64,000 nt of DNA from Parvimonas sp. oral taxon 393 str. F0440 (lineage in GTDB: Bacteria > Bacillota > Clostridia > Tissierellales > Peptoniphilaceae): the NCBI GenBank assembly GCA_000223315.2, contig AFUS01000005.1:186001-250000 (forward strand), in the 5' to 3' direction. The notes beneath the pieces are model-generated. The model saw only the letters and a program-made list of their open reading frames with translations. It searched no databases and had not been told where the DNA came from. A program made the position numbers and the translations under genes. Each line of letters opens with the position of its first letter. The first letter of the stretch is position 1. Of the stretch, positions 30,540 through 52,416 are shown in pieces.

Positions 30540-30635
30540 ATTAACATTACAGTATGTTTCTATTTAAACGAATTGTAAAGTAACTATTAAGCATCATGAA
30601 TATAAATTTACATTACATTATGTTTCCATCTATAC
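30540..30635 (-). CRISPR. Two-repeat relic CRISPR array
   Basis: A copy of the 30-bp repeat with one mismatch at 30540-30569 and a second copy with four mismatches at 30606-30635 flank one 36-base spacer-like segment. They are separated from the next array by a membrane-protein gene and a hydrolase pseudogene. The decay suggests an old, inactive array end. Confidence 0.85.
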
Positions 30636-31549: not shown

Positions 31550-32106
31550 ATTTACATTACAGTATGTTTCTATTTAAACTTAGCTGCAAAACCAATCGTG
31601 CTTTTTATAGCTAAACTCATATTTACATTACAGTATGTTTCTATTTAAACCACGAAACAGAGCTTGTACTCGGAAGAACAATAAAATTTACATTACAGTA
31701 TGTTTCTATTTAAACTTAAGAAAGAAATATTATGGTTACACATAGAAGGATTTACATTACAGTATGTTTCTATTTAAACATTGTTCCACTTCATAAACTT
31801 GCACAATACAAACTTATTTACATTACAGTATGTTTCTATTTAAACAAAAAAAGAAATTTCAAAGTTTAAAGAATAATGCTCAATTTACATTACAGTATGT
31901 TTCTATTTAAACGCGAAGAAACTTGCTAGAATGAATGCTGAAGAAAATTTACATTACAGTATGTCTCTATTTAAACACTTGTTACATCATATACAACGAA
32001 AGAAGATGAAGATTTACATTACAGTATGTCTCTATTTAAACAAAGAAGTTGAAGATAAGAAGTTAGATTTTTCTAAATTTACATTACAGTATGTTTCTAT
32101 TTAAAC
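31550..32106 (-). CRISPR. CRISPR array, 9 repeats, 8 spacers
   Basis: The 30-bp repeat begins ATTTACATTACA and ends TTTCTATTTAAAC on the plus strand. Repeats begin at 31550, 31621, 31686, 31750, 31816, 31883, 31947, 32012 and 32077; spacers are 34-41 bases. The repeats at 31947 and 32012 share one T-to-C change (ATGTCTCT). The reverse complement ends ATGTAAAT, a type I-B crRNA handle, so I infer minus-strand transcription. The right flank does not resemble the leader of the large array, so this array probably has no leader of its own. Confidence 0.97.
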
Positions 32107-33490: not shown

Positions 33491-33708
33491 AAGACAGACC
33501 TCCTAAAACTTTATAATAATGTTGTATCAAACAATACAAAGGAAACATTTATTATAATTAGTTTTGTAGTTTTTTATATTATAGCATAATTGCTAATCAA
33601 AATACAGAAATAACTCTATTAGGATTAGCAATATAGTAATGACATTTTCACTACTCACAAACAAGACTTGAATCGCCATCTCAATGTCAAAAATATAACT
33701 ATCCTACG

Positions 33709-36700
33709 AAATTACAGTATGTTTCTATTTAAACTCATATCACGCAAACGGGCTAGACTATGTACCACATGAATTTACATTACAGTATGTTTCTATTTAA
33801 ACCACTATATTACACATGTTGGCATATATATATATAGGAAAATTTACATTACAGTATGTTTCTATTTAAACAAAACTCTACAATTCCTACTTTTGGTGTT
33901 CCATCATTTACATTACAGTATGTTTCTATTTAAACTCAGCAGTTGTTGCAAGTGCGACAGGTCGTACAAATTTACATTACAGTATGTTTCTATTTAAACT
34001 ATATTCAACACCTTTTACGGTCCAAATTTCAAAATTTACATTACAGTATGTTTCTATTTAAACGACGGAGAGCAAATCGGGGAAACCACTTATAACTCAT
34101 TTACATTACAGTATGTTTCTATTTAAACTAAAAAATGCGGGAACGAAGAATACTTTTATGAAAATTTACATTACAGTATGTTTCTATTTAAACTATCTCA
34201 GAAAAGATATTGAAAAGAATTTACTTTTATTTACATTACAGTATGTTTCTATTTAAACTTTGGAAATTATTATTTTGTTGAAACCAAAGCACCAAATTTA
34301 CATTACAGTATGTTTCTATTTAAACTTCAGGTGTTGACAATGCGATAACATCAAAAGTAATTTACATTACAGTATGTTTCTATTTAAACAATTTATCAGC
34401 TCAACTTATTGATACTTTTAATACATTTACATTACAGTATGTTTCTATTTAAACAACAGGAGCATATGTAATAGAGGATAAAGATGTAGCATTTACATTA
34501 CAGTATGTTTCTATTTAAACAAATAAAGCACATATACTAAAGTTGTTCCAATCCCCTCATTTACATTACAGTATGTTTCTATTTAAACCTATCAACAACA
34601 CCTTTAACAACTCCATATGCGGCTTCAATATTTACATTACAGTATGTTTCTATTTAAACAGATCTTTTTCCTTTTCTTTTTCTTGAAACTACCATATTTA
34701 CATTACAGTATGTTTCTATTTAAACGCTTTAAAAAGTATCTCTGTATTTTTTTCGATACAATTTACATTACAGTATGTTTCTATTTAAACGTAACAATTT
34801 TTTAACAGAAATCAGCAACTATCAAATTTACATTACAGTATGTTTCTATTTAAACGGAGATAACATACTCCCTTTTTTTACTTAGAACTAATTTACATTA
34901 CAGTATGTTTCTATTTAAACCTTTAGCTTAAGAGCTGTTAATACTAAAAATCCAAAAACATTTACATTACAGTATGTTTCTATTTAAACTGAGTATATTA
35001 CTATGAAAGAAAAACCCTTATTACATTAATTTACATTACAGTATGTTTCTATTTAAACAAAGAATTTTTTTTGCAAGATTTTTAAATCGTGAAATATTTA
35101 CATTACAGTATGTTTCTATTTAAACAGTAAAAGAAAGTTTAAAAACTTTTAATCTTGACAATTTACATTACAGTATGTTTCTATTTAAACGCTGCTTGGG
35201 GAATTGTTAAGGTTGCAAGTATAATTTAATTTACATTACAGTATGTTTCTATTTAAACCGTGTAGAAGTTTTATATCTTGATGATTTTCTACAATTTACA
35301 TTACAGTATGTTTCTATTTAAACCTAGAAGTGTGGAAGAAGCAAGAGAAATTATAATAAATTTACATTACAGTATGTTTCTATTTAAACCCATTGCAACA
35401 TTATAGAAGTGTGTTACGATAGCATTTACATTACAGTATGTTTCTATTTAAACGCTGCTTGGGGAATTGTTAAGGTTGCAAGTATAATTTAATTTACATT
35501 ACAGTATGTTTCTATTTAAACTATGATAGACATTAAAGTAATCGGTTCAGGTAGTAGATTTACATTACAGTATGTTTCTATTTAAACTTGAAACTTTAAC
35601 AAAAAACGAGAAAACTATTATTGATTTACATTACAGTATGTTTCTATTTAAACGCATCCTTTAAATGATGATAATATTGTTGCGAAAAGATTTACATTAC
35701 AGTATGTTTCTATTTAAACAGCTATATCCGTTTCGACATAGATGGTATGGAAATATTTACATTACAGTATGTTTCTATTTAAACTCTCCATTTTCATTAT
35801 CCAACATCAAGTTATAAACATTTACATTACAGTATGTTTCTATTTAAACGTGGGTAAAATATTGTAATACCTTTGTTGTAATATCATTTACATTACAGTA
35901 TGTTTCTATTTAAACTGGCACATAATATACAAGATTTAATAGGTGCATTATTTACATTACAGTATGTTTCTATTTAAACAAAACAACAATATTTGATGCT
36001 TATAGCTGGCTTTTGATTTACATTACAGTATGTTTCTATTTAAACTTTGATAATGTTAAATCTTTTACATTTATAGACATATTTACATTACAGTATGTTT
36101 CTATTTAAACTCAAATTTATGCTCTAGCATAATTCAACTCTTAAATTTACATTACAGTATGTTTCTATTTAAACTTTGAAACGAGAAAGTCATATTTTTT
36201 AAAAGCCTTTGATATTTACATTACAGTATGTTTCTATTTAAACCGCATAACGAAATACTAAAGCAAGTATTTTCTAAATTTACATTACAGTATGTTTCTA
36301 TTTAAACTTGAAACTTTAACAAAAAACGAGAAAACTATTATTGATTTACATTACAGTATGTTTCTATTTAAACGCATCCTTTAAATGATGATAATATTGT
36401 TGCGAAAAGATTTACATTACAGTATGTTTCTATTTAAACAGCTATATCCGTTTCGACATAGATGGTATGGAAATATTTACATTACAGTATGTTTCTATTT
36501 AAACCTCTCTGTCCTGTCTGCTGAAAAATTCATAATTTTATTTACATTACAGTATGTTTCTATTTAAACGGTGGACAGTTTGAAAGAGACAATTTTAGAA
36601 TTAATATTTACATTACAGTATGTTTCTATTTAAACAATACCTTATAGTGAAGACATTTTGTTGACTGTTAGATTTACATTACAGTATGTTTCTATTTAAA

Positions 36701-37946
36701 CTTCGCCTAATGTTATGAAAATGTATCTATCTTCAATATTTACATTACAGTATGTTTCTATTTAAACTTCTCTTCTTATGATTTCCCATTTTTCTTTTTG
36801 CCCATTTACATTACAGTATGTTTCTATTTAAACCATTTCAAAAATGAATCAAGTTATAAGTGAATTTAAATTTACATTACAGTATGTTTCTATTTAAACT
36901 CTCTACCTCTGCTCATATTGTCAATTCCACGATAAATATTTACATTACAGTATGTTTCTATTTAAACAAAAAGTGATTTTAGAAGCAATACAAAAGCAAA
37001 CATTTACATTACAGTATGTTTCTATTTAAACTGAAAAAGCTGTCAATGATATTTTAAAAGCGGAAATATTTACATTACAGTATGTTTCTATTTAAACTTA
37101 AAAGGGGCTTTTGCGACGATAGGAACAATAATATTTACATTACAGTATGTTTCTATTTAAACTGATTTTTTGGACCTTTAGCAAAAACTATTCTTCCATT
37201 TACATTACAGTATGTTTCTATTTAAACACTTTTACAACCTTTAACTTTTTTGTGTCTATTTTATTTACATTACAGTATGTTTCTATTTAAACTATAATTT
37301 TCTTAAAATTGTATTTATATTGTTTCCTTGATTTACATTACAGTATGTTTCTATTTAAACAATATTAATTTTTTACAAAATTAATATTATTAGTATTTAC
37401 ATTACAGTATGTTTCTATTTAAACCAAGAAAGTTACGGTAAAGAGCCTGACATTTTCCATTTACATTACAGTATGTTTCTATTTAAACACTCTTGGAAAT
37501 GGAATAAAGACTGCCGCTAAAGTATTTACATTACAGTATGTTTCTATTTAAACGATATTTTATAATAACAAAAATAAAAAATAGAAAGAATTTACATTAC
37601 AGTATGTTTCTATTTAAACTTTTTCAGGCTAGTGAAAGCAAGTATGACGGAAAAATATTTACATTACAGTATGTTTCTATTTAAACCGGAGCATGATGTT
37701 TATCTTGAGCCGTTCTTTGGTATTTACATTACAGTATGTTTCTATTTAAACGCAAGACTAGCAAAGCCAACAAAAGAAGTTGCAAAATTTACATTACAGT
37801 ATGTTTCTATTTAAACTTTTGTGCCATTTGTGCAATGCCTAAAACAACAGCATTTACATTACAGTATGTTTCTATTTAAACAAAGGCAAAAAATAATCTT
37901 GATGAAGAAAAGATAAATTTACATTACAGTATGTTTCTATTTAAAC
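33709..37946 (-). CRISPR. Large CRISPR array, 65 repeats, 64 spacers
   Basis: The same 30-bp repeat occurs 65 times at about 65-bp spacing; spacers are mostly 34-38 bases. The leftmost repeat (ending 33734) lacks its first bases, as expected at the old, leader-distal end. The others are nearly all identical. The last full repeat is 37917-37946. The minus-strand repeat begins GTTTAAATAG and ends ATGTAAAT, matching type I-B repeats, so the leader is on the right. Duplicated spacers: 35191-35228 equals 35454-35491, and the three-spacer block 35588-35754 equals 36308-36474. Confidence 0.98.
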
Positions 37947-38173
37947 AGGTAGCTCTGTACATATTGAAAATACTACCATTAATTCGAAAATTCTGTCTAC
38001 CTACAAAATTTTTTTGAAATTTTACACTAAATTTTTTAACCAAAACAGAATTACTTGAAATTTTAACATTTTTTTAATCTGTCGAACCTCCAGTAAATTT
38101 CACATACTGAAGGTTGACAAATCATCTTTTTTAATAATTTTACTATCCTTAGTTTAATATATTGAAATTCAAA
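37947..38173 (-). promoter_or_regulatory. CRISPR leader with an inverted repeat
   Basis: This AT-rich stretch lies between the youngest repeat and the type III genes and holds no ORF. At 38081-38116 GTCGAACCTCCAGTA and TACTGAAGGTTGAC are nearly complementary, separated by eight or nine bases. Position and composition fit a leader, which would hold the array promoter and integration signals. The exact promoter is not clear to me. Confidence 0.65.
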
Positions 38174-39063
38174 TTATTCAATTATATTTAATTCAATCAA
38201 TCCGTATGGTAGCATTGTTTTTTCATCAATATAAAATCCATTTTGCACATTATTATTTTGATTAAGCTCAGATAGACTACCTAAAATTCCCTTATAACCA
38301 CCTAAAAATACTATATTTTATTATTTTGTATTTGTTGTATTAGTTTTTGAATATTATCTTTAATCTTTTTCAATTTTTCTAAATAATTTTCATTATCTTT
38401 ACTTTTTTCTACCTGATCTTCTAATTTTCTATCCTCTATCCAAGACTCAATATTTGTTATCCTTCTTTCTATTTCTTCCATATAATTATTTAATTTATTT
38501 TTAGTACTTTCAAAACTATCTTCTAATTTGTTTTTGAAGTCTACAGATACGTCACATCTAAATAAGACTTCAGTTTCAAATTTTTTTCCACTTCCAATCA
38601 TCTCTATAGCTACACTAGGAAAAAAGGTTTCAAATTTTGGGGTTTTATAAATAGTCTTTTGCTTATTATCTTTATTTTTCTTCTTGTCGTTTTGATATAA
38701 GTATTGAAATTTATATAAATTTTTTAATTCTATATTTTCATTACTAATCTTAATATCTTGAAATAAAATGCTACTTCTAAAGCTATTGTCATCTTCATTT
38801 TTTGTACCCGATAATAATGCTCCTTTTAAAGAAGATGCTGGAATATAATACTCTTGTGCATATAAAAATTCATTTTCAGGTAATAAATCTCTCTCTTCAT
38901 AACTATAAAAAGGATAAATAATATTTATATTATCAATATTTACTATGTTTGAATTTTTTATATTTTTCTTAATATTTTTATAGTCAACACCCTTGTACAA
39001 TGCTTTTTCCATTCTAGGAGATAAAATCAAGGATGAAATAGTTGTAATTTTAAGTTTCACCAT
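38174..39063 (-). CDS. Type III CRISPR RAMP protein, Csm5-like, with coiled coil, frameshifted
   Basis: About 296 residues after repair. The N-terminus MVKLKITTISSLILSPRMEK, then EYYIPASSLKGALLSG, is the RAMP xSSLKG motif. FFPSVAIEMIGSG and, after the break near 38311, FLGGYKGILGSL (the Gly-rich loop) and LPYGLIELNI complete the fold. This order resembles Csm5, the subunit capping the crRNA 3' end. Residues about 170-250 (DSFESTKNKLNNYMEEIERR onward) form a long charged coiled coil inserted before the Gly-rich loop, which normal Csm5 lacks. It is the last gene before the leader. Assignment to Csm5 rather than another Cas7-like subunit rests on motif order and gene order. Confidence 0.7.
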
Positions 39064-40292
39064 TTACACCTCCAATTTAATAAGATAAGAGTTACCAAAA
39101 ATAATTGCATTTTTCTTATATAAAGGATTATATTTACTATTATCTATACTTTTCCCAACTTTATATAATTCTGTTTTATCTTCTTTTACTTTAATAACAC
39201 TCCCTGCAGTTACAAAACTAATTACTTTAGATATTTCATTTTCTATTTCAAAAGGCTTTCTGTCAGATGTATATATATCTAAAACTGAATTATTCTCATC
39301 AATATTATCAAAATTTGGTAATAAAACTCCAATATTAAGATAATTTGCATTTGTAGATGATATCTCCTCATCTTCTTCGCTTATAATTTCAATATTATGA
39401 ATACTGTACTCATTATAACCCGAGCTTCCTTTCCCTCCTAAAAAACATGGAATTTCAGATTTATCACCTATTGTCTTCTGTTCAGAAATACTATTTTTCA
39501 TATATTTCAAAATATTTGAAATACAAGTTCCTTCCATTACCTTAACAAAGAAACTAAATTCTTTTACAAAATTATCTTCTTTATCTACAAAAGAAAGAAT
39601 AGGTAAAGAATATGCAACATTTGGTAATCCTGGAAGTTCTTTAATTTGATTTTCTAAACGAAATTTTTGAATGAAAGTTTGATTTTTCTTTATATAATTA
39701 AAATTTTTCATCTTTTTTACATTAATTATTTCTTTACTTTCTGAAAGTATCAAAAAATCATTCAATTGACATCTCTCAATAAAATCCATATTTTTAATAG
39801 ATTCATAGATATTTTTAGCAGATAAATTATTTATATTTTCAGATAAACTATTATATTTATTTTTTATTTTATCTAATTCTAATTTTAAATTATTTATTTC
39901 ATCATTTAATTTTTCTTCTCTTCTTTATTTAATTCGATACTCTCATTTTTTTTTATATTATTTTTGCTTATTAATTCTTTAACTATCGATTTGCTTTCAA
40001 TATTTAATTCATTTTGTTCTTTTCATATTCTTTAATTTTTCCTGATTTTCAGCTAACTTACATTCTAAGTTTTGAAGAATAAACGCTTTAGGTGTAGGAT
40101 AATACCCAGTAGGCATTAAATTTGAAATCATACATTTTTCTTTCTTTTCCTTAACCCCTTTTACAAATATGCTAATCTCATCTTCAGTGCAACATTTCTT
40201 AGAACTGTTAATTAAAAAACCAAAAAGTCTTTGAGAATCAGGTATAGTTGTCATTTCTCCTATTTTTTCAATTTAACTTCATATGTTATCAT
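39064..40292 (-). CDS. Type III CRISPR RAMP protein, Csm4/Cas5-like, with coiled-coil insertion, frameshifted
   Basis: About 410 residues after repair. MITYEVKLKKIGEM then TIPDSQRLFGFLINSS matches the IPSDTLFGAL motif of Csm4 (Cas5 group), the subunit that holds the crRNA 5' handle. A further segment, CMISNLMPTGYYPTPK, follows. From about residue 85 to 190 there is a coiled coil (LECKLAENQEKLKN ... INNLKLELDKIKNKYNSLSE). The C-terminal half contains GLPNVAYSLPILSF, FLGGKGSSGYNEYSI (Gly-rich loop) and VTAGSVIKV, the usual Csm4 ending. Breaks lie near 40265 and between 39790 and 40010, all in A/T runs. The start at 40292 has AAGGATGA upstream. Confidence 0.72.
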
Positions 40293-40312
40293 TTCATTCA
40301 TCCTTTTTTATT

Positions 40313-41005
40313 CTAATCAATTATTTCTACTTTTATTTGTCCATATCCTCTTGACTTTGAGTTGCCAATTCTATACAATCCACAATTAAATTCTTTCAAT
40401 ACTTTTTCAAGCTCATCTTTTATTAATCCTTCTTTTGAAGAATCTTCTCTTTCCATAGAAAATGGATTATAGAATCTAATAATTCCTTCAAACTCAACAC
40501 CGGGTTTTATAACTTTATAGGTTCTTGGATTACTAAATATATTTCCGTCTTTTTCTTCCAAACTATTTTTTGTATCTATTAAAAAATAATCTTCTTTTCT
40601 ATTCTTACATTTTGATACCCTAAAATCAGAGCAAAATAATCTAGGCATACCATTAACTCCTTCAATTCCAAAAATATATTCTGATTTGAAATTTTCGTTT
40701 TTATACTTTAAATTTGATATTATTTTATTAATTTTTTCAGTCTTATTTATATCTTCATTCTCATATTTCTTTAAAGTTTTTTCAATAACAGATTTTATAT
40801 ATCCAGTAGTATCTTCCATTTTATATTGATATTTTTCTCTAATTAAATTACGCAATGCTCCTTTAAAAGCTGAACCATGAATAATTGGGTTCCCTTTTTC
40901 ATCTGTAGTTGTTGACTGATCAACTCCTCCTACGGAAAAACTTTCCGTTTGGTTTCCAATTAAACAACAAGAAACTGTAGTTATTTTTATTTTAATTTCA
41001 AACAT
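40313..41005 (-). CDS. Type III CRISPR backbone protein, Csm3-like (Cas7)
   Basis: This intact 230-residue RAMP protein is the likely repeated backbone of the complex. SVGGVDQSTTTDEKGNPIIH followed by GSAFKGALRNLIRE matches the Csm3 region, with Asp29 in the place of the target-RNA-cleaving Asp. FGIEGVNGMPRLFCSDFRV and the C-terminal GLYRIGNSKSRGYGQIKVEI (Gly-rich loop) complete the fold. It follows cas10 and precedes the Csm4-like gene by 20 bases. Only one such gene is present. GGAGG at a good distance supports the start. Confidence 0.82.
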   Translation of the reverse strand: MFEIKIKITTVSCCLIGNQTESFSVGGVDQSTTTDEKGNPIIHGSAFKGALRNLIREKYQYKMEDTTGYIKSVIEKTLKKYENEDINKTEKINKIISNLKYKNENFKSEYIFGIEGVNGMPRLFCSDFRVSKCKNRKEDYFLIDTKNSLEEKDGNIFSNPRTYKVIKPGVEFEGIIRFYNPFSMEREDSSKEGLIKDELEKVLKEFNCGLYRIGNSKSRGYGQIKVEIID

Positions 41006-41085
41006 AATTTCATCCTCCTTTATTTTTCTATAAAATATTATACTCTATTTTTGTTTATATATTATTTTCTATATATGATAATATT

Positions 41086-43026
<1,941 letters not shown>

Positions 43027-43924
43027 CTATTCCTCCTTTATATCTTTATTAAACATATCTACATAATCTAAATGTGGAAAGAATATTGGATTATTTATTA
43101 ACATTAAAAGTTGATTGAATTGAAAAATAAATGATAGTAATGTATGATTACCATCAACAACATATGTTTTGCTTTTTAAATCATACTCTTTAAGTTTATT
43201 TATTTCTTCATCATTTATAATATAATCTTTTATATAATTTTCCAATTTTTTCTTTTCTTCTTTTAAGTTTTCACCATCTTCTATAAAATTAGTACTATGA
43301 TTACAATTTAAGAACCAATCAAATAAATTAGTATATTTTTATTATACTTAATATTTAATCTATTTTCTATAGCATTTAATGTAATGTCAAATCCACACTC
43401 CATAAAATCACTCTTTCCAATATGACAAAAAATTTTAATCGGAGTTGTACTAGTTTGAGAAGAATATTTTTTATACTTTACACCATAATGTATCCCTTGA
43501 ACAATCCTCGTTATAGAATTTTTTCCTGTCTTTAAATTATCTATTGAAGAACACCAATCTTTCAAGGCTGCTTTTGTTTTATCTGATTTTGTAATCTTAC
43601 TTTTACATTCAATAACAGCTGCTACAGCTTCAATAGGAATAAATTTTAAAGTTCCATATCTAAAAATATAAGGAGTATATTGTTCATCATAAACAGCTAA
43701 GTCAACTTCTTTGGAACAATGTCCAAAAGAATCCATAATAAAGACTCCTCTTTCAATATTAAATTTTTTTGGTACTAATCTTTCAAATAAATTTTTCCAA
43801 ATTTCTTCCCTATTGGAACCAAGAGTGGTACCATGCTTACAAGAATAATTTAATTGTGTTACTAACTCTTTTTCTAAATTATCATAATTATCTATGATAT
43901 GTTGAATATGATTTTTTTGTCCAT
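43027..43924 (-). CDS. DUF6602-like putative nuclease, CRISPR-associated, frameshifted
   Basis: About 299 residues after repair of breaks near 43915 (a run of seven A) and 43325. The repaired N-terminus reads MDKKNHIQHIIDNYDNLEKE, then GSNREEIWKNLFERLVPKKF. Next come MDSFGHCSKEVDLAVYDEQY and IPIEAVAAVIECKSKI. The E-V-D...D then E-C-K pattern is like the PD-(D/E)xK nuclease core, and the order matches DUF6602 proteins. The C-terminal part includes YVVDGNHTLLSFIFQFNQLL. It starts after GGAGG, lies 48 bases after cas2 and is coupled to cas10. This placement suggests a subunit or effector of the type III module. No CARF domain is seen. Confidence 0.65.
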
Positions 43925-43971: not shown

Positions 43972-44250
43972 TTAAATAAAATTATCTGTAGCTCCGTTGT
44001 CTATGCCTAGGATTTCTTTTTCGAGCCATTTTTCGTCTCTACTGTTAAATATTATTAGTGAATCTCTATCTTTTCTTATTATTTTGGCTAATGATTTTTT
44101 TAAGGTAAATAGTTGGGATTTGGTTAATTCTCCTTCGAATACCGAATTTTGTACATGAGAGAGATATTTTTTACAAGTTTTGAATGTATCTCTCCACACT
44201 TTTGCACCTTTTTCATCAAGCACTATATCATAAACTAATATTATATACAT
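43972..44250 (-). CDS. cas2: CRISPR adaptation endonuclease Cas2
   Basis: Cas2 dimerises and bridges two Cas1 dimers for spacer integration. The 92-residue protein starts MYIILVYDIVLDEKG, with the conserved Asp in VYDI, then KYLSHVQNSVFEGELTKSQL, the typical second strand and helix. Its ATG lies two or three bases after the cas1 stop, and GGTGG within the cas1 end serves as ribosome site. I trimmed the longer frame, whose first ATG lies inside cas1. Confidence 0.95.
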   Translation of the reverse strand: MYIILVYDIVLDEKGAKVWRDTFKTCKKYLSHVQNSVFEGELTKSQLFTLKKSLAKIIRKDRDSLIIFNSRDEKWLEKEILGIDNGATDNFI

Positions 44251-44252
44251 TT

Positions 44253-45244
44253 CTACCACCAAAGTTTAAAGCTTTCATATTCTTTTTCATTCATTAGATG
44301 TTTTACAAGTTTATATGCCTCTAATCTAATTAAATATTTGTAACTTACACTTTTTCCTAAAGTTTTATGCTTTATAGTTTTATTTAATCTATCTTCATAT
44401 TCTTTTAAAACTATCTGGGAACCTTGTTTTGTAAATTGAAGATAATTTAATCCTTCTATGAAGTGCTTTTCTGTAATTTGCTTTTTATTTAAGAGTGAAA
44501 AAATCATTCTATCCCCTATAAGAGGTTTAAATATCTCTGCTATATCAAGCGCAAGTGAAAATCTTCTATCTCCGGGAGAATGTAGATAACTAACAGTAGG
44601 ATTTAATTGTGTTATGTATATTTGTGAAAGTACAGTCGTATAAATTAGTGTATTTACAAATGAAATTAAAGTATTTATTAAATTATCCGGTGGACGCTTT
44701 ACTCTTTTTTCGAAATTTATTTCTTTATCAATAATTGTATTCCATGAGTCATAATAAACTTTATGAATATTTCCTTCTATCCCCATAAGTTCAGAAATAT
44801 TGGTTTGTAAATCAATATGTCTTTTTAAATTTGAAATAATCTCAATAAATTCTTTTACATTTTTCCCTCTTTCATTATAGTACCTTAAGTTTCTTAAAAT
44901 TCCCTCTGTTGCTCCCTTAACAAATTCTTTTGCTAGAACAAGTCTTTTATCGTCATTAGAAAAGTATTCTACCTGTTTTACGAGTAATTTACCTGAAATA
45001 TTTTGTTCTTTTGGATAAAAACTGCCTGTATAAAAATTATAATAGTTAAAAAAATGTACAGATATTCCGTATTTTGAAAGCATATTTATCAAACTCGTAT
45101 TAAAGCCCATTTCAGTCATAACATAAATATCTGAAACAGTTTCTATTGGAATATCTTTTTTATTTCCGTTGTTCGTACAAATCTGTAAAGTATTATCTTT
45201 TCTTTTTAAATCTGATTCAGAATATATAAAATAGCTTTTTTCAT
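44253..45244 (-). CDS. cas1: CRISPR integrase Cas1
   Basis: Cas1 catalyses spacer integration at the leader end. Catalytic residues are seen in LMGIEGNIHKVYYDSW (Glu), SYLHSPGDRRFSLALDIAEI (His and Asp). The family is type I-B. An uninterrupted frame reaches 45266, but the GGGAGGAG ribosome site points to an ATG at 45242-45244. Using that ATG needs one extra A in the run that follows, which gives MKKSYFIYSES, the usual subtype start. So a start-region indel is likely. The stop overlaps the cas2 start region. Confidence 0.94.
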
Positions 45245-45253
45245 AACTCCTCC

Positions 45254-45748
45254 CTATATTAGACATATATCACAATATGCACAATTTTTACATAATTTTA
45301 TCTTTTTAAATTCAGGGGGCTTTTCACTTTCAACCAAAGTTCTTATTTCTTCCAAAATTTTTGGTATTTTTTCAAAATCTTCCAATTCCAATTTAATTAT
45401 CTTACTCTTTCTTAGAAGAGGATAGTCCAAAACTCCCGTAATGTCTTTAACTCCTTCATTATGTAAAATCCAAAGATAATATTTTATCTGTTCAATAGAG
45501 GCTTCCTCCATTACTTTACTCTTTTTTACTTCATGAATTATATTTTTATCTTTTATATAATCTATATTTATAATATTTTTTACATTAATATGCTTTTCTT
45601 CTCCACTATAAAATTCTTCATCAATGGATTTTCCTATTGAAACATCTTCATTTGTATGCTCCATTGTAATCCCATTATAAAAATACCAAAGTTTCCTTTT
45701 ACAAACAAAATTGTAATAAACCATTATCCCCGTAATTTCTCTATCCAT
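45254..45748 (-). CDS. cas4: CRISPR adaptation nuclease Cas4
   Basis: Cas4 trims prespacers and selects PAM-containing ends. The 164-residue protein has the first Fe-S Cys at 16 (NFVCKRKLWYFYNG) and the C-terminal cluster C153/C156/C159/C162 (CKNCAYCDICLI). The RecB-like nuclease core shows GVLDYPLL (Asp) and HEVKKSK (ExK). The order cas4-cas1-cas2 is that of type I-B loci. Confidence 0.93.
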   Translation of the reverse strand: MDREITGIMVYYNFVCKRKLWYFYNGITMEHTNEDVSIGKSIDEEFYSGEEKHINVKNIINIDYIKDKNIIHEVKKSKVMEEASIEQIKYYLWILHNEGVKDITGVLDYPLLRKSKIIKLELEDFEKIPKILEEIRTLVESEKPPEFKKIKLCKNCAYCDICLI

Positions 45749-45756
45749 AAAATCAC

Positions 45757-48122
45757 CTATATAAAACTATCATATTCATATTCATAATCTGTTTTATTAA
45801 CATCAATTATTTTTTCAAATCCTACACCGTCTAACAACTTACCTTCTTCAGAAGTCAATCTTATAAATCCTTTTTCATCATATTTACAATATACTTTGTA
45901 TAAGTTTATATTTTTTGATATTTCAATTTTTTCTTTTAAATATTTAGTATCATATAAACCAACAGATACAGTATATTTCATAAGTTCGTCTAATTTTTTA
46001 GTATATTTTAACTTTAATTCTATTTTTTCATCTTCAGATTCACTGCAAATTAATTTGCTCTTTATATCTTTAAGTTCATTTAATATTGAATTTATCTCAT
46101 TTTCATTTAAAAGTCCTCTTTCAACATCTACAGGAAAAACATTAAATGATATAATATCTCTAAATGTCTGTTTAGTTTCAGTTTCTATTCCCAAATCTCT
46201 TAATGATATATTAATATAATTATATCTGTCCTTGTATTCTTTCAAAAATGCAGACTCCTTTATTTTTTCAAAAGTGAAAAATTCTTTTATTAAATTCTGT
46301 TTATCCTTTTCAGTTAAAATACCATCCCCTTTTTGTTTAATTGCTTCTTTACTTAAATCATAAATTTCTTTATAAATAAATCCTTTTTTTGAATCTTTGT
46401 TTTCTTTTAATAAATTTTTATTTATTTCTGTAAAAACATAGCAGTTATAATCATTAACTTCTTTTTTCCCTTTTCTATTAACTCTCCCAAGTCTTTGAAA
46501 TAAGCCATTTAAATCTGAAAGTTCTGTAAATAAGAAATCAAAATCTATATCTAAACTGGCCTCCACTATTTGCGTTGATATCCAAATTTCATTTCCTATA
46601 TTTTCAGTTTTTCCAATTTCTATTATTTTATTTTCTTTTTCATTTCTTTCTTTTTTTATAAACTTACTGTGTAAAATATTTATATTTACTAATCCCTTTT
46701 CTTTCAAATCTGCAAAAATTTCTTGAGATTTTTTTATGGTATTACAAACAACTAAATATTTTTTATTATTTGAATTGTTTTTCACATAATGATTATAAAT
46801 ATATTCAGAATTAAGTTCTTCCTCTACTACTTTTACATTATGTCTTTTCATATCATTTGTAAATTCTTTAGTAATAAATTTATATTTTTGCTCCTCTTTG
46901 TTCAAATAATCAAAATTTTCTGTAAACAATAAGTCTTTTATGAAAGGTGGAAAAGTTGCTGTAATTATGCAAACTTTCCCACCTATTTCAATTATATCCT
47001 GTATTCCACGAATAAGAGTTGCAAGAAGCTCAGGACTATATGCCTGTATTTCATCTATAACAACTTTTGAATAACTCATCATAGCATTTTTAAATTCAAA
47101 TCCTTTACTTCTAAAAACAAAATCAAAAATCTGATCAGGAGTTGTTATATTTAAAGGAATAGAAAACTTTTTACTATTTTCGTAATAGGATAAAATTTTA
47201 TCATTATCTTCACCTTCAAAATTCTCAAGATACATACTCAAAGTGTCGCTATGCAATAATGCGAGCTTTTCTTCAATTTCTTCACCATTACAAATATTAT
47301 TTCTAATCCTGTAATAAATAGAATTTATAGCTGTTTTTAAAGGCAACACAAAAAAGCCTTTGGTATCACCAATCCAATGTAATCCCGCTTCAGTCTTTCC
47401 CATTCCTGTCTGTGCAATTACTATTAAATTTTCTTTTTATTTTCCTTACAAAAATTTTGTAATTCATTCCAACTAGCTTTGTCATCTTCTCTTTTCCAAC
47501 CGTTCAGCAAATTATCCAATCCCTTTTCCAAAAAATCAGGATAAAATTCAACAGGAATATGAGCACTTGCAGAATAATCACATTTATTAAGTAGTCCTAA
47601 AATTTTTATAAAGTTCATTTGATTTTCTTTATAAGAATCTTTAATCTTTTTTAAATTTCTATCTAATTTTTCTTTTCGATTCTTGTCTAAATCAGGATAA
47701 ATATTTAAAAGTCTCTCTAATATCAACTTTCTATTGTCTTCACAAGTTATATATTTAAAATTATTAATATAATGATGATGATTTAAAATTGCATAAGATG
47801 CCAAATTATTCTCATTAAGAAAACTATTAGAAAAATTATTTAATTCAATATACATCATATAATATGACAATATATTATGAGGAACCTCTTTAAACTTATC
47901 AAATTTAGTATTGTTTTTAAGCCTTTCAGTAAATAAAAAATCTGCCTTACCTACGTCATGGTATATAATTGCTCTTTCTAAAATTTTACTATCTTCAGTA
48001 TCTATATAATTCAAACTTATAAGTAATTCTAAACATTTTAATAAGTTTTCTGTATGCTCTTCAATAGTTTCATCCGGTTTTGCAAGTGACTCTGCTATAA
48101 ATCTATTTTTGAAAATTTCCAT
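45757..48122 (-). CDS. cas3: Cas3 HD-nuclease/helicase, frameshifted
   Basis: Cas3 unwinds and degrades DNA after Cascade finds a target. The N-terminal HD domain has His23, AIIYHDVGKADFLF (His55-Asp56), PHNILSYY and NHHHY. After the break near 47425-47440 (A-run) the sequence reads KENLIVIAQTGMGKTEAGLH, the Walker A. VVIDEIQAY (motif II) and ITATFPPF (motif III) follow, then QIVEASLDIDFDFLFTE and QRLGRVNRKG (motifs V and VI). With the break repaired it is one protein of about 787 residues, as is usual for type I-B. Without repair it would be separate Cas3'' and Cas3' genes. Confidence 0.92.
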
Positions 48123-48130
48123 TTAATCTC

Positions 48131-49248
48131 CTAAACTAAACTAACAATATAACCATCTTCATCCAAATAAATATTTTTATCTGTGGATTTATTATATTCT
48201 TTTAATTCATCAAAGTCTATTTTGTATTCAGATAAATAACCAACTCTGTACTTTTTAAATTTTCTTTTTCCATCTTGTATTTCATAATTTTTATTAATAT
48301 AATAATTAGTACCTCTGGCTTCTATTTTTTCAGTTATCTCTTTAAAAATATCTTTTAAAAATATTGTTTCTTGTTCAATTGCATCTGTAGGAACATATCC
48401 ACTATTATACATAAATTCAATATCATTCGGATTATCTTCATAAATATTAACAAATTTAACTTCTTTTATCTCTACAAAATCTTCACTTCTTCCAAGTGAT
48501 GTTAAATTGTATATATTTTTTTCAACAGTATCCAAAACTTCTTTAGAACCCCTAATATGAACTACCAAATCTACATCATAAAGAACTTCATAATATTTAA
48601 TAGAAGTAGTTAATGAAGCATAATAAGAATACGGAATTGCATATTTACTATTTTTCTCTTCATCAAATTGTAATTTTTCAAGCTTTATTTTTGAATTTAA
48701 ATCATTAATTTCAGACAAAAGATTTTTATATTCCTCTGATTTCTTATCAAATTGTTTTTGTCTCATTTTAAGTTTAGAAATTTCATCTTTTATACTTTTT
48801 TCAAAATTTTAAAATCATCTGACTTCTTTTGATAAAATTCTCTTAGATTACATATTCTGATGTATTCTTTCAATTCTTCTTCATCATATATATCTATAGT
48901 AGTCCGATTCTTAAAACTATTTTCTTGAGGTTTTAAGGCTTTAGCAATAATTTTATATCCTTCATTAAAAGTATCAGGATTTTTTAATTTAACTAAAATT
49001 CCTCTATCATCCATAACATTATTTAAAAAGGTTTGATCCTTATACATTTCTTTCCCTAAGGATTGAAATCTACCTTGAATACTTATATCCATATCTTTGT
49101 ATTCTTTATAGTTACAAGCATTATGAATTGCACCGATTATGGTTGAATAAGGTGGAAGTGGATAAGTCATTTTATTTTCTGAAGTTTCCTCTTTTTTATA
49201 ATTAGCTTTATTTTGATGTAACTTTATCCTTAAAAGTTTATCCTTCAT
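48131..49248 (-). CDS. cas5: Cascade subunit Cas5, type I-B, long form with coiled coil, frameshifted
   Basis: Cas5 holds the crRNA 5' handle. The N-terminal part reads LLRIKLHQNKANYKKEETSE and MTYPLPPYSTIIGAIHNACN, the RAMP helix motif. After the break near 48790 the frame continues SIKDEISKLKMRQKQFDKKS. Residues about 155-220 form a coiled coil, then KYAIPYSYYASLTTSIKYYE and a C-terminal domain follow. At about 372 residues it is longer than the typical 200-250. The start overlaps the cas7 end by 11 bases. Confidence 0.87.
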
Positions 49249-50140
49249 AATATTTTTTTACATCCCCTTTTAACTTTTCAAAAAATTCAGTAACACTTAT
49301 AGGATTTAACTTTTCTTTTATTTCCTTTTCATTTACAAAATTTCCACCTTCAATAAATGCTATTTTATAATCTTCTTTATTTAGCCTTTCAATCAATTCA
49401 TCAGTTATTTTTAGTGTGCTTTTTGTAACATTCACGACATTATCAAAATAGTGAGTTTTACAACTTCCAATTCCTCCAAATATTAGTAAAGGCTCAGAAT
49501 TATCAAGATTTCCTTTAACAACTAATGATAAATTTTCTATTGTTTCCAATATTAAATTTACTCTTTCAATTTTTTCTGAAACTTCCGCCTCTGAATCAAA
49601 ATTTTCATCAACACCCACTTTGTCTAAATCAAATGTTATACTGTATTTCTTTAATGATTTATCAAACTCATATTGATATGGCATAAGTCCAGATTCTCCG
49701 GCTTTTTCTTGTAAATTTATTCCATTATCTCTAGCATAAGTTGATGCTAAACATAAATTGTTGTGAAATCTTGTTTCATTAACAAATTCATCACATGCAA
49801 CCGCATCTGTTAAATAAAATGAACTTTTTCTTATAACTGTTAAATTGTTAGTATTCATATATCCGCCTTCAAGCGCTCTACAATTTGATGCATTCAATTT
49901 TTCAGTAACTTCTTTTTGGGTTACTTTTTTATCAACTACAACCTTCAAATCATCATACATTCCACTTTGAGTCATAATTGCATTTTTCATACTTTCTCTG
50001 CTTCTGGTAGCATAAATTTTACCATTTTTAAAAACTTTTTGTACAGATGATGCATTCCCCAAACTTTCTCCATAATTTGATGTAATATTACATATAATAG
50101 TAAGTGTTAATCCTAAATTTTTCTTTTCTTTATTTTCCAT
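49238..50140 (-). CDS. cas7: Cascade backbone Cas7, type I-B (Cst2/DevR group)
   Basis: This intact 300-residue RAMP protein coats the crRNA spacer in several copies. LTLTIICNITSNYGESLGNA, then KIYATRSRESMKNAI, matches the N-terminus of the Cst2/DevR group. FYLTDAVACDEFVNETRFHN and LSLVVKGNLDNSEPLLIFGG follow. It starts after AGGAGGATTTAAAA and its end overlaps cas5. Confidence 0.93.
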   Translation of the reverse strand: MENKEKKNLGLTLTIICNITSNYGESLGNASSVQKVFKNGKIYATRSRESMKNAIMTQSGMYDDLKVVVDKKVTQKEVTEKLNASNCRALEGGYMNTNNLTVIRKSSFYLTDAVACDEFVNETRFHNNLCLASTYARDNGINLQEKAGESGLMPYQYEFDKSLKKYSITFDLDKVGVDENFDSEAEVSEKIERVNLILETIENLSLVVKGNLDNSEPLLIFGGIGSCKTHYFDNVVNVTKSTLKITDELIERLNKEDYKIAFIEGGNFVNEKEIKEKLNPISVTEFFEKLKGDVKKYYEG

Positions 50141-50570: not shown

Positions 50571-51677
50571 CTATTTTGTTTTCTTTGCTATCTTTATTTT
50601 TCCCTTACTGCCATCTCTAAGGAGCTTATCAATCAAATAATCTAAATACTTAGTATATAAGATACAATCAATAACTTCATCTAAAATCGGTTCATATTCA
50701 TCCGTTCTTAATTTGCAAGGACTGTTTATTGCTTTAAAAATATTATCATCTTTTATATTTGAAATTTTTTCGAAAATTCTAATAGCGGAATTTCGTAAAA
50801 ACATTGTTTCAAAATATTCCTTATTTTCCTTTTTACCATTTTTAATCTGCATATTTTTAGATATTATTTCAACTTCATAATCTAAAAATCTTGAAACATT
50901 TTTTGTAGTAAAAAACAAATTTAACTTAAAGTTTTTAAAAATCCCCACTGAATTTTTTTCATCTAAATCCAAATTTTTATCTGTTAAATAATCATTTGAT
51001 TTTAATAACATATCAGTTGAAAAATTATTATTAATAAAAAATGAACTATCTCCTTTTGAAAACGCAAAAGGAATATAATCAAACTCACAATAATCCTCAT
51101 ATACATAAGTATTATAGTCCCAATTGAATGATAAAGATTTTGTCTTTCTCCCTTGATCAACATAATATCCCAATAACCTACATATTTTTTGTTTTTCTTT
51201 TCCCATACAACTTGGATTACAAAATTTCGAATACATTGATTTTGCCCCTTCAAATGTCTTTTTTATTAATTCAAGCTTATTATCAGATATTTTCAATAAA
51301 ATATTATCCTTGTTTTTTATAGAAATTTCATCATTTTTAAATGTATTTTTCATTATTGTATTCCAAAAACTTTTTAAATTTTTAACTTTTTCTTCATCAA
51401 AATCTTCAGAATTTAAAAGATTTTCCAACCTTTTATGATGCATTTTATCTTTAAAATATTCTTCTGCAAAATCATAATATTTCTCTTCATTTTTTGATAT
51501 ATCTATATCATCAAAATTATATAAAAGCACATCACTTCTTCCATTATATTCTGTTGAATAATTGAGTTTATGATATTTTAGATACCTTATAATTCCAACT
51601 GCAGCTGCTGAAAATCTCCAATCAGAAAATTCTAATTTTCTATCATATCCGTTAAAATTACCTTTATCTTCTATCAT
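50571..51677 (-). CDS. cas8: Cascade large subunit Cas8 (Cst1-like)
   Basis: Cas8 recognises the PAM and recruits Cas3. This 368-residue protein starts MIEDKGNFNGYDRKLEFSDW and RFSAAAVGIIRYLKYHKLNY, a typical Cst1-like start. Cys residues in KFCNPSCMGKEKQKICRLLG form a possible zinc site. The C-terminus (SKGKIKIAKKTK-type, basic) is helical. The start ATG overlaps the cas6 stop (TAATG) after GGGAGATGATT. Large subunits diverge strongly, so the call leans on the operon. Confidence 0.8.
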   Translation of the reverse strand: MIEDKGNFNGYDRKLEFSDWRFSAAAVGIIRYLKYHKLNYSTEYNGRSDVLLYNFDDIDISKNEEKYYDFAEEYFKDKMHHKRLENLLNSEDFDEEKVKNLKSFWNTIMKNTFKNDEISIKNKDNILLKISDNKLELIKKTFEGAKSMYSKFCNPSCMGKEKQKICRLLGYYVDQGRKTKSLSFNWDYNTYVYEDYCEFDYIPFAFSKGDSSFFINNNFSTDMLLKSNDYLTDKNLDLDEKNSVGIFKNFKLNLFFTTKNVSRFLDYEVEIISKNMQIKNGKKENKEYFETMFLRNSAIRIFEKISNIKDDNIFKAINSPCKLRTDEYEPILDEVIDCILYTKYLDYLIDKLLRDGSKGKIKIAKKTK

Positions 51678-52416
51678 TAAATCATCTCCCAAGAATCTAT
51701 AAGCTGTAATAGTCCGAAACCTGATGCATTTTTACTTCCGACAGACGAAATCAGCATTTCGTTTAATAAGCTATTATCGGCATTAATTATAATTACTCCT
51801 AAACTAGCATCGATATACAATCCATAAAAAAGTACAACAGCTTTTTTCATTTCAGAAATATCCATCTTCATATCATCAATAGCGTTGGAATAATTTGGAA
51901 AATGGATTTTTAAATTTTCTTTAAATTTATCAAAGAAATCATCATCTTCAACAGTTATATGTCTGTCTGTATTATCTCCTCTATTATGGTCACGAATGAC
52001 AAGAGGAGAACAAAATTTAAATCTTGCACAATTTCCAACAATCTTTTTTTCATTTACAATTTTAGCATCTGTTAAAACTATAAAATTATTTTCAGAAATT
52101 TTAAATTCCTTATCTTTATATTCTAAAAACGAATTGAAAAAGATAGTTCCAACATCTTTTTTTGGAGCTTTAAAAGTAATCTCAAAATTATTTTCTCCAA
52201 CTTCAATTCTGTTAGGAAAAAATTTAGGTTTAAAAAATTTAACTGCCCATGAATATTTTTTTCATCACTTTTGATATAATCATCCCCAAAAAACTTTTCA
52301 AAAAATTCACCATTAGAATAATTTGATACTGCTGTTTTAAAAAATTTAATACAGAAACGATGATAATCTTTAGGGATGAAATTATTATCTGTTTTAAATT
52401 TTAAAACGATTTTCAT
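51677..52416 (-). CDS. cas6: crRNA-processing endoribonuclease Cas6, frameshifted
   Basis: Cas6 cuts the repeat transcript; the single cas6 here must serve all arrays and probably both effector modules. The N-terminus MKIVLKFKTDNNFIPKDYHR, then FFKTAVSNYSNGEFFEKFF, has the early Tyr-His. After breaks near 52255 and 51870-52120 the frames join as VKFFKPKFFPNRIEVGENNF, CARFKFCSPLVIRDHNRGDN and GSKNASGFGLLQLI, the C-terminal Gly-rich loop of Cas6. Length is about 247 residues. First gene of the cas run, with GAGAGGTG before the ATG. Confidence 0.86.

Follow-up and report, generated by a model that had tools for sequence, protein, structure and literature searches.

What does a CRISPR spacer record when its letters can be read as part of a bacterial surface protein, and from what kind of DNA was it taken? 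This question is raised by a 37-nt spacer in the window, by which we mean the whole stretch of 64,000 nucleotides analysed here (G000:C1:186001-250000; G+C 26%), taken from a 1.48-Mb genome that is assembled in five contigs and is 89.68% complete. The first-pass annotation had placed the spacer at 34259-34295 and had read it on the plus strand as a SpaA/Cna-B segment, and its coordinates, its flanking repeats and its reading were confirmed: the spacer occupies exactly 34259-34295, it is enclosed by two perfect copies of a 30-nt repeat (34229-34258 and 34296-34325), and its plus-strand translation from 34259 is FGNYYFVETKAP, with one base (A) left over. The repeat scan places it in a regular array of identical direct repeats, the main array of the window (33705-37946, 65 repeats and 64 spacers); the same repeat also forms a second, shorter array (9 repeats and 8 spacers) at 31550-32106. 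The repeat, ATTTACATTACAGTATGTTTCTATTTAAAC, is present in 76 repeat-like copies within the window, and there are 73 spacers in total, 69 of them distinct. Both arrays and the two flanking repeat copies are assigned to the minus strand, as is the spacer itself, whose orientation is taken from the position of the CC flank described below.

The AT-rich stretch at 37947-38130 (minus strand) is the probable leader, as judged by its position and the orientation of the repeats, and the repeat copy at the other end (33705-33734) has degenerated, with 5 mismatches, as leader-distal copies are expected to. The spacer is therefore likely to be among the older entries, being the 9th from the degenerate end and the 56th counted from the presumed leader. 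Within the main array, a three-spacer block (35588-35754) is duplicated exactly at 36308-36474, at an offset of 720 bases, and one more spacer is present twice (35191-35228 and 35454-35491), which suggests recombination between repeats. Some 900 bases outside the array that starts at 31550, two more repeat copies (30540-30635, with 1 and 4 mismatches) are likely an array remnant.

The SpaA reading itself can be assessed independently of any donor. On a 12-column profile of the SpaA signature made from loci L002-L051, the spacer scores 35.3 bits, while the runner-up among the 69 distinct spacers has -14.3; genuine SpaA signatures have a median of 31.2 bits and a minimum of 21.2. The score of the spacer was reached by none of 40,000 37-mers of the window (maximum 6.4) and by none of 60,000 shuffled sequences (maximum 9.5). 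The spacer carries the conserved Glu and the beginning of the AP-x-G-Y by which the signature is recognized, the x-G-Y part falling outside it, and its closest DNA matches are SpaA genes that are read in this same frame. In named Gram-positive genomes (Listeria, Clostridium, Enterococcus, Lactococcus, Vagococcus, Kurthia and others), 13 loci encode GNYYFVETKAP, with 17 occurrences of the peptide in total and each of them within a stop-free frame (495-2239 codons), and PF17802 (SpaA) was found above its cut-off in 10 of the 10 frames scanned, one frame for each of 10 of these 13 loci. Together with the SpaA-annotated plasmid matches described next, the profile score and the presence of PF17802 in these frames give the SpaA/Cna-B reading good support.

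The donor was looked for in related genomes and in collections of mobile DNA. Copies of the spacer with at most 3 mismatches were absent from 129 other genomes of the family, so that of all 130 only its own genome holds one; the same is true among the six genomes of the genus, and there the copy is the spacer itself. No exact protospacer with a PAM was thus present in the 129 other family genomes at up to 3 mismatches. In 50,697 phage records the spacer had chance-level matches only (best E 0.1). Plasmid records gave, among other weak matches, SpaA-annotated genes of Enterococcus and Listeria with 82-90% identity over part of the spacer, and 4 of the 20 plasmid matches listed (H21, H22, H23 and H26, the top three included) are annotated as SpaA isopeptide-forming pilin-related protein. 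In IMG/VR there was no exact coding match to GNYYFVETKAP, a search with the CRISPR repeat found nothing, and of the 10 stretches that matched a pattern in a search with a 127-aa SpaA query none was confirmed as a relative. A close phage or plasmid donor was therefore not found in the phage, plasmid and IMG/VR collections searched; neither was a perfect match to a phage or plasmid gene devoid of SpaA context, the outcome that the first-pass annotation had named as contrary to its reading.

Because the exact donor was not found, we infer the target of the spacer from its relatives. When the spacer with its two repeats was used as the blastn query against the 130 family genomes, the best match among those listed outside array-like matches was G002:C49:72676-72713 (E 2.2e-5 for one genome); at most six candidate stretches were scored per genome, and a better match may exist. 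This match covers 31 of 37 nt (6 mismatches), encodes LGKYYLVETKAP and is flanked by CTT instead of CC. The search of own and related genomes and of mobile elements proposed by the first-pass annotation thus brought SpaA relatives of up to 31/37 but no exact donor, and the best match is without a PAM. SpaA is also abundant, with 87 PF17802 matches in the six genus genomes, and the best match among so many relatives is therefore weak evidence for the identity of the donor gene.

The company that this relative keeps is informative. The gene at G002:C49 encodes an adhesin of 1449 aa in the stretch taken (1720 aa by genome-wide scan) with four SpaA stretches and a T-Q ester domain, and it stands together with genes of integration and transfer: near it are an ArdC gene, a MobA/VirD2 relaxase gene and a serine recombinase gene. 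With its relaxase, recombinase and ArdC genes, this element is at least mobilisable. An element of G003 carries a 688-aa adhesin with a thioester domain and three SpaA stretches; near it are genes for a tyrosine integrase, a Toprim protein, a coupling protein and a lysozyme/NlpC protein, VirB4-like matches are below cut-off only, and there is no relaxase among the genes scanned. Another element, G002:C2, has a MobL relaxase, a coupling protein, ArdC and lysozyme/NlpC, with SpaA frames at 62.8-65.0 kb.

The targets of the other spacers provide a context in which such relatives can be weighed. Comparison of the main array with the six genus genomes, in which at most 40 candidates were scored per genome and better matches may exist, gave nine places with E of at most 1e-3 outside arrays among the matches listed. 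The regions around eight of them (all except G005:C2:407538) were scanned without gaps with the 69 spacers, yielding 15 matches of at least 78% identity versus none for reversed spacers, a contrast that is partly selected, as the regions were chosen for their earlier matches, the result for the PAM being less affected. The band of 73-78% identity, which was not counted, holds 10 further matches, the control having 4 at that threshold. Ten of the 15 matches fall in two phage-like regions (G001 near 900-920 kb and G004:C37), whose scanned genes include those for a terminase large subunit, tape-measure proteins, a replication initiator, a methyltransferase and an SbcC-like nuclease. The remaining five, those of spacers 34194, 34259, 37293, 37425 and 37620, fall in elements with transfer or mobility genes. 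Leaving our spacer aside, 14 mapped spacers are divided between phage-like regions (10) and genes of mobile elements (4), and 13 of the 14 targets lie beside a CCN PAM.

The four mobile-element targets are as follows, all spacers being taken on the minus strand. The neighbouring spacer (34194-34228) matches at 30/35, with PAM CCT, a RadC-domain gene of the integrative element of G003 that directly follows the SpaA adhesin gene. The spacer at 37293-37330 matches a type IV secretion system coupling-protein gene of G002:C2 (34/38, PAM CCA), and the spacers at 37425-37458 (28/34, PAM CCT) and 37620-37656 (30/37, PAM CCC) match one lysozyme/NlpC gene of the conjugative element of G002:C2. The latter two, far apart in the array, match places only 31 bases apart in that gene (L082; G002:C2:51183-51247). 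The adjacent spacers 34194 and 34259 hence both point, among the genus genomes, to mobile elements that carry SpaA genes, but to different ones (G003 and G002:C49). A reading of spacer 33803-33841 as an NlpC peptide of the G003 element was rejected, its score of 39 being within the control range (up to 47).

When the spacers are taken in crRNA orientation, on the window's minus strand, 13 of the 15 matches have a 5' flank starting with CC (binomial probability about 5e-21 at a CC frequency of 1.9%); the two matches lacking CC are the best relative of spacer 34259 (CTT) and that of spacer 31977 (ATT). The protospacers of the arrays therefore share a 5' PAM, which, as mapped from spacers, is likely CCN for the genus. 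From the position of the CC flank, the guide of spacer 34259 is taken to be the minus strand, and it would hence pair with SpaA mRNA. A general bias towards guides antisense to mRNA was considered and not upheld: 11 of 14 matches with an assigned frame were antisense (one-sided p 0.029), and the sister arrays gave 3 antisense, 3 sense and 2 unassigned.

The signature constrains what could flank the spacer in its donor. The codon that follows ..KAP starts with the last A of the spacer, and the next codon is the Gly (GGN) of x-G-Y; since this Gly codon is invariant, the first letter of the PAM would be C. The second letter is C only if the x codon is ANG (for example, Lys AAG, giving CCT), and we presume that the donor had such a codon before the Gly. 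Signature relatives with a CCT flank do exist, in Vagococcus (L118) and in G002:C2.

Arrays with the same repeat in two sister species, G001 (32 spacers) and G005 (13 spacers), have no spacer in common with the window, and the SpaA profile recognizes a signature in none of their 45. Eight of the 45 match the same scanned phage-like and element regions, and all eight have a CC flank, a count that was made once the motif was known and has no reversed control. One spacer of G005 is identical over 37 of 37 nt, with a CCT flank, to a part of the SpaA adhesin gene of the G003 element; the match covers adhesin codons 550-561, IVSNYELTKQDT, and lies outside the SpaA signature. CRISPR arrays of this genus therefore do target an element-borne SpaA adhesin gene. 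Across the genus, arrays of three species share the phage-like regions as targets, with a CC PAM (L078:13331 in G001, L080 and L079). A spacer of the G001 array matches the chromosome of G001 itself at 36/36 with CCT, a possible case of self-targeting.

The arrays are accompanied by genes, all on the minus strand, of a type I-B system. The adaptation genes are cas2 (43972-44250; PF09827, 79.8 bits, cut-off 23.8), a type I-B cas1 (44253-45266; TIGR03641, 435.3 bits, cut-off 304.1) and cas4 (45254-45748; TIGR00372, 66.4 bits, cut-off 65), and next to them are genes for a Cas3 helicase (45757-47403; TIGR01587) and a Cas3'' HD nuclease (47424-48122; TIGR01596). By profile matches, cas5b (48131-49248) is present in two frames (48131-48766 and 48790-49248) and is followed by cas7 (Cst2/DevR; 49238-50140; TIGR02585) and by a shortened cas8 (Csx8/Cas8b-like; 50571-51692), which matches 374 of 493 profile positions, the C-terminal part of the profile remaining unmatched. 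Cas1, cas2, cas3, cas4, cas5, cas7 and cas8 of the I-B type are thus all found nearby. The frame breaks in cas5b and cas8 may be an indel error of the assembly or real decay and, with cas5 in two frames and cas8 short, the I-B effector may not be intact in the assembly. Between the array and the I-B genes there is a type III-A-like module (38311-43023, minus strand), recognized by profile matches, with Csm5-like, Csm3-like and Cas10-like proteins and a 241-aa protein (39064-39789) that has no NCBIfam, Pfam or PADLOC match; the arrays and the adaptation genes of the I-B system may also serve this module. A frame of 142 aa at 43308-43736, close to cas2, cas1 and the Cas10-like gene, encodes a NucC-like nuclease without the N-terminal part of the profile.

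These observations suggest how the spacer may have been acquired and used. We consider it probable that the spacer is a stored memory of a SpaA/Cna-B adhesin gene that an integrative, conjugative or mobilisable element brought into an ancestor, and its role is most likely that of an old type I-B immunity against the adhesin gene of a mobile element. Type I-B adaptation proteins would have taken from the element a 37-nt piece next to CC, the signature Gly codon (..KAP-x-G-Y, GGN) supplying the first C of the PAM and the ANG codon before it (e.g., AAG, Lys) the second. The minus-strand crRNA would then direct Cascade and Cas3 to destroy incoming DNA bearing a matching adhesin gene. The same guide, being antisense to the mRNA of the adhesin, could also serve the type III-A-like complex encoded beside the array. 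A broader proposal goes further: the SpaA signature on conjugative adhesins could be a favourable recurrent target of CRISPR, with the Gly codon supplying half of the PAM on the antisense strand and conservation of the protein keeping the seed region similar, and old spacers could then block many adhesin-bearing elements or prime against them while the III-A complex reads the same guide against mRNA. We regard this broader proposal as speculative and improbable.

Of the alternatives, the one that survives best places the donor gene in a chromosomal operon for a sortase-assembled pilus, as a minor pilin of another strain or species whose DNA came in by transformation, by transduction or with a larger mobile piece. 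Minor pilins of G005 (YGTYYLVETKAP, 30/37 nt) and G003 (FGTYYLVETKAP, 28/37 nt) resemble the spacer, and their peptides are the closer ones by BLOSUM62 score (53 for G005 and 56 for G003 versus 50 for the element adhesin). The pilin locus of G003 also has a 683-aa backbone-type pilin and three sortases recognized by Pfam, some 3.5 kb from the genes for ribosomal proteins L13 and S9, and among solved structures the G005 pilin is closest to 4oq1, a cell-wall surface anchor protein. In the host genome no orthologue of the pilin was found (best E 2.8e-4 versus 1.0e-263 in G005 and 2.9e-197 in G003). At the DNA level, however, the pilin matches are slightly below the 31/37 of the element adhesin, and they have no CC flank (CAT and CTT), a deficiency that the element adhesin shares. 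None of the other 14 mapped spacers falls in a gene of this kind, in regions that were, it must be added, picked for their matches. Moreover, when all 69 spacers were tried on 20 further SpaA-bearing stretches of the genus, pilus regions included, and on L083 and L153-L156, there was one match of at least 77% (spacer 37228, flank AAT), and reversed spacers gave none in the same stretches. Three points favour the element over the pilin: the targets of the other mapped spacers are phage-like or mobile-element regions, the neighbouring spacer points to a mobile element, and the sister-species spacer matches an element-borne adhesin gene exactly; a pilin donor is possible but rather unlikely.

It is a good deal less likely that the donor was a phage or prophage carrying, or adjoining, a gene for a SpaA/Cna-B surface protein. 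This alternative is in line with the 10 of 15 mapped spacers that fall in the two phage-like regions, and a looser IMG/VR match, AGSYYFVETKAPNGY, does lie in a SpaA protein with a cell-wall anchor on one provirus contig (L052), behind genes that by eye are of lysis type. But the phage records and IMG/VR gave nothing beyond the chance-level and inexact matches reported above, and this sole provirus case sits at the end of its stretch, is Lactobacillus-like in appearance and may be host flank. The proposal that the spacer is aimed at a surface protein of the host itself, for self-targeting or regulation, is very improbable. The host genome does contain 12 SpaA matches, but, in an assembly that is 89.68% complete, it holds nothing within 3 mismatches of the spacer except the spacer, no near-exact copy with a PAM was found outside the array, and the best match across the six G000 stretches that hold all 12 SpaA matches is 27/37 with the flank CAC. 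Finally, the probability that an AT-rich spacer gave the SpaA reading by coincidence is negligible, since none of the 100,000 control sequences, window 37-mers and shuffles together, came within 25 bits of its score and the best matches share the reading frame of SpaA genes. Thus, of the three targets offered by the first-pass annotation, the conjugative island fits best, with an adhesin gene beside relaxase, ArdC and recombinase genes, a neighbouring spacer that points the same way and a sister spacer matching at 37/37; a related strain stays possible through its chromosomal pilin, and the host itself finds no support.

The reading of the spacer as a memory of an element-borne adhesin bears on the genus as a whole. 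The CRISPR memory of a small AT-rich Gram-positive genus has recorded, besides phage-like regions, mobile elements with transfer genes, and its records include genes for surface adhesins borne by elements (two spacers, from two species, one of them a perfect match). In addition, CCN emerges as the likely PAM of the genus, and whether anti-conjugation immunity often records adhesin cargo becomes a question that can be tested. A literature search on CRISPR spacers, SpaA/Cna-B and conjugative elements, which covered titles and the beginnings of abstracts and is not proof of absence, found no SpaA-targeting spacer; one candidate was discarded, since in the excerpt of PMC3374615 'SpaA' is only the name of an author.

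How does this immunity compare with known systems? CRISPR immunity against integrative and conjugative elements is established. As with known spacers of this kind, coupling-protein, lysozyme/NlpC and other element genes are matched here beside a PAM; unlike them, spacer 34259 falls in an adhesin cargo gene, outside the core transfer genes. The spacer shares with SpaA/Cna-B pilins and adhesins (PF17802) the signature G-x-Y-x-x-x-E-T-x-A-P-x-G-Y, but it is a 37-nt fragment within a CRISPR array and not a gene. In the type I-B system of Clostridioides difficile, as presented in the excerpt of PMC8406132, adapted spacers are associated with a CCN PAM, YCN serves for interference, and a Tn1549-like transposon is among the favoured spacer-donor loci. 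The 5' CCN PAM described here is alike, although it comes from spacer mapping and not from experiment; unlike in C. difficile as that excerpt presents it, the effector genes are by profile a Cst2/Csx8/Cas5b set, and a III-A-like module lies between the array and the I-B genes. Adhesins encoded on Gram-positive conjugative plasmids aid mating, as described for the PrgB type in the excerpt of PMC7726212. The element adhesins found here are similarly cell-wall surface adhesins encoded with transfer genes; they differ from the PrgB type of that excerpt in being built of SpaA, thioester and TQ domains, with no polymer-adhesin domain listed by Pfam in the two scanned (G002:C49 and G003), and their role in mating is putative. 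In the excerpt of PMC11076991, a gene cluster that a Parvimonas micra tumour isolate has and gingival isolates lack holds a recombinase together with a 'SpaA isopeptide-forming pilin-related protein'. The immunity described here is thus of a known kind, and what distinguishes it is a target that can be read directly from the spacer and a PAM half of which is supplied by a protein motif.
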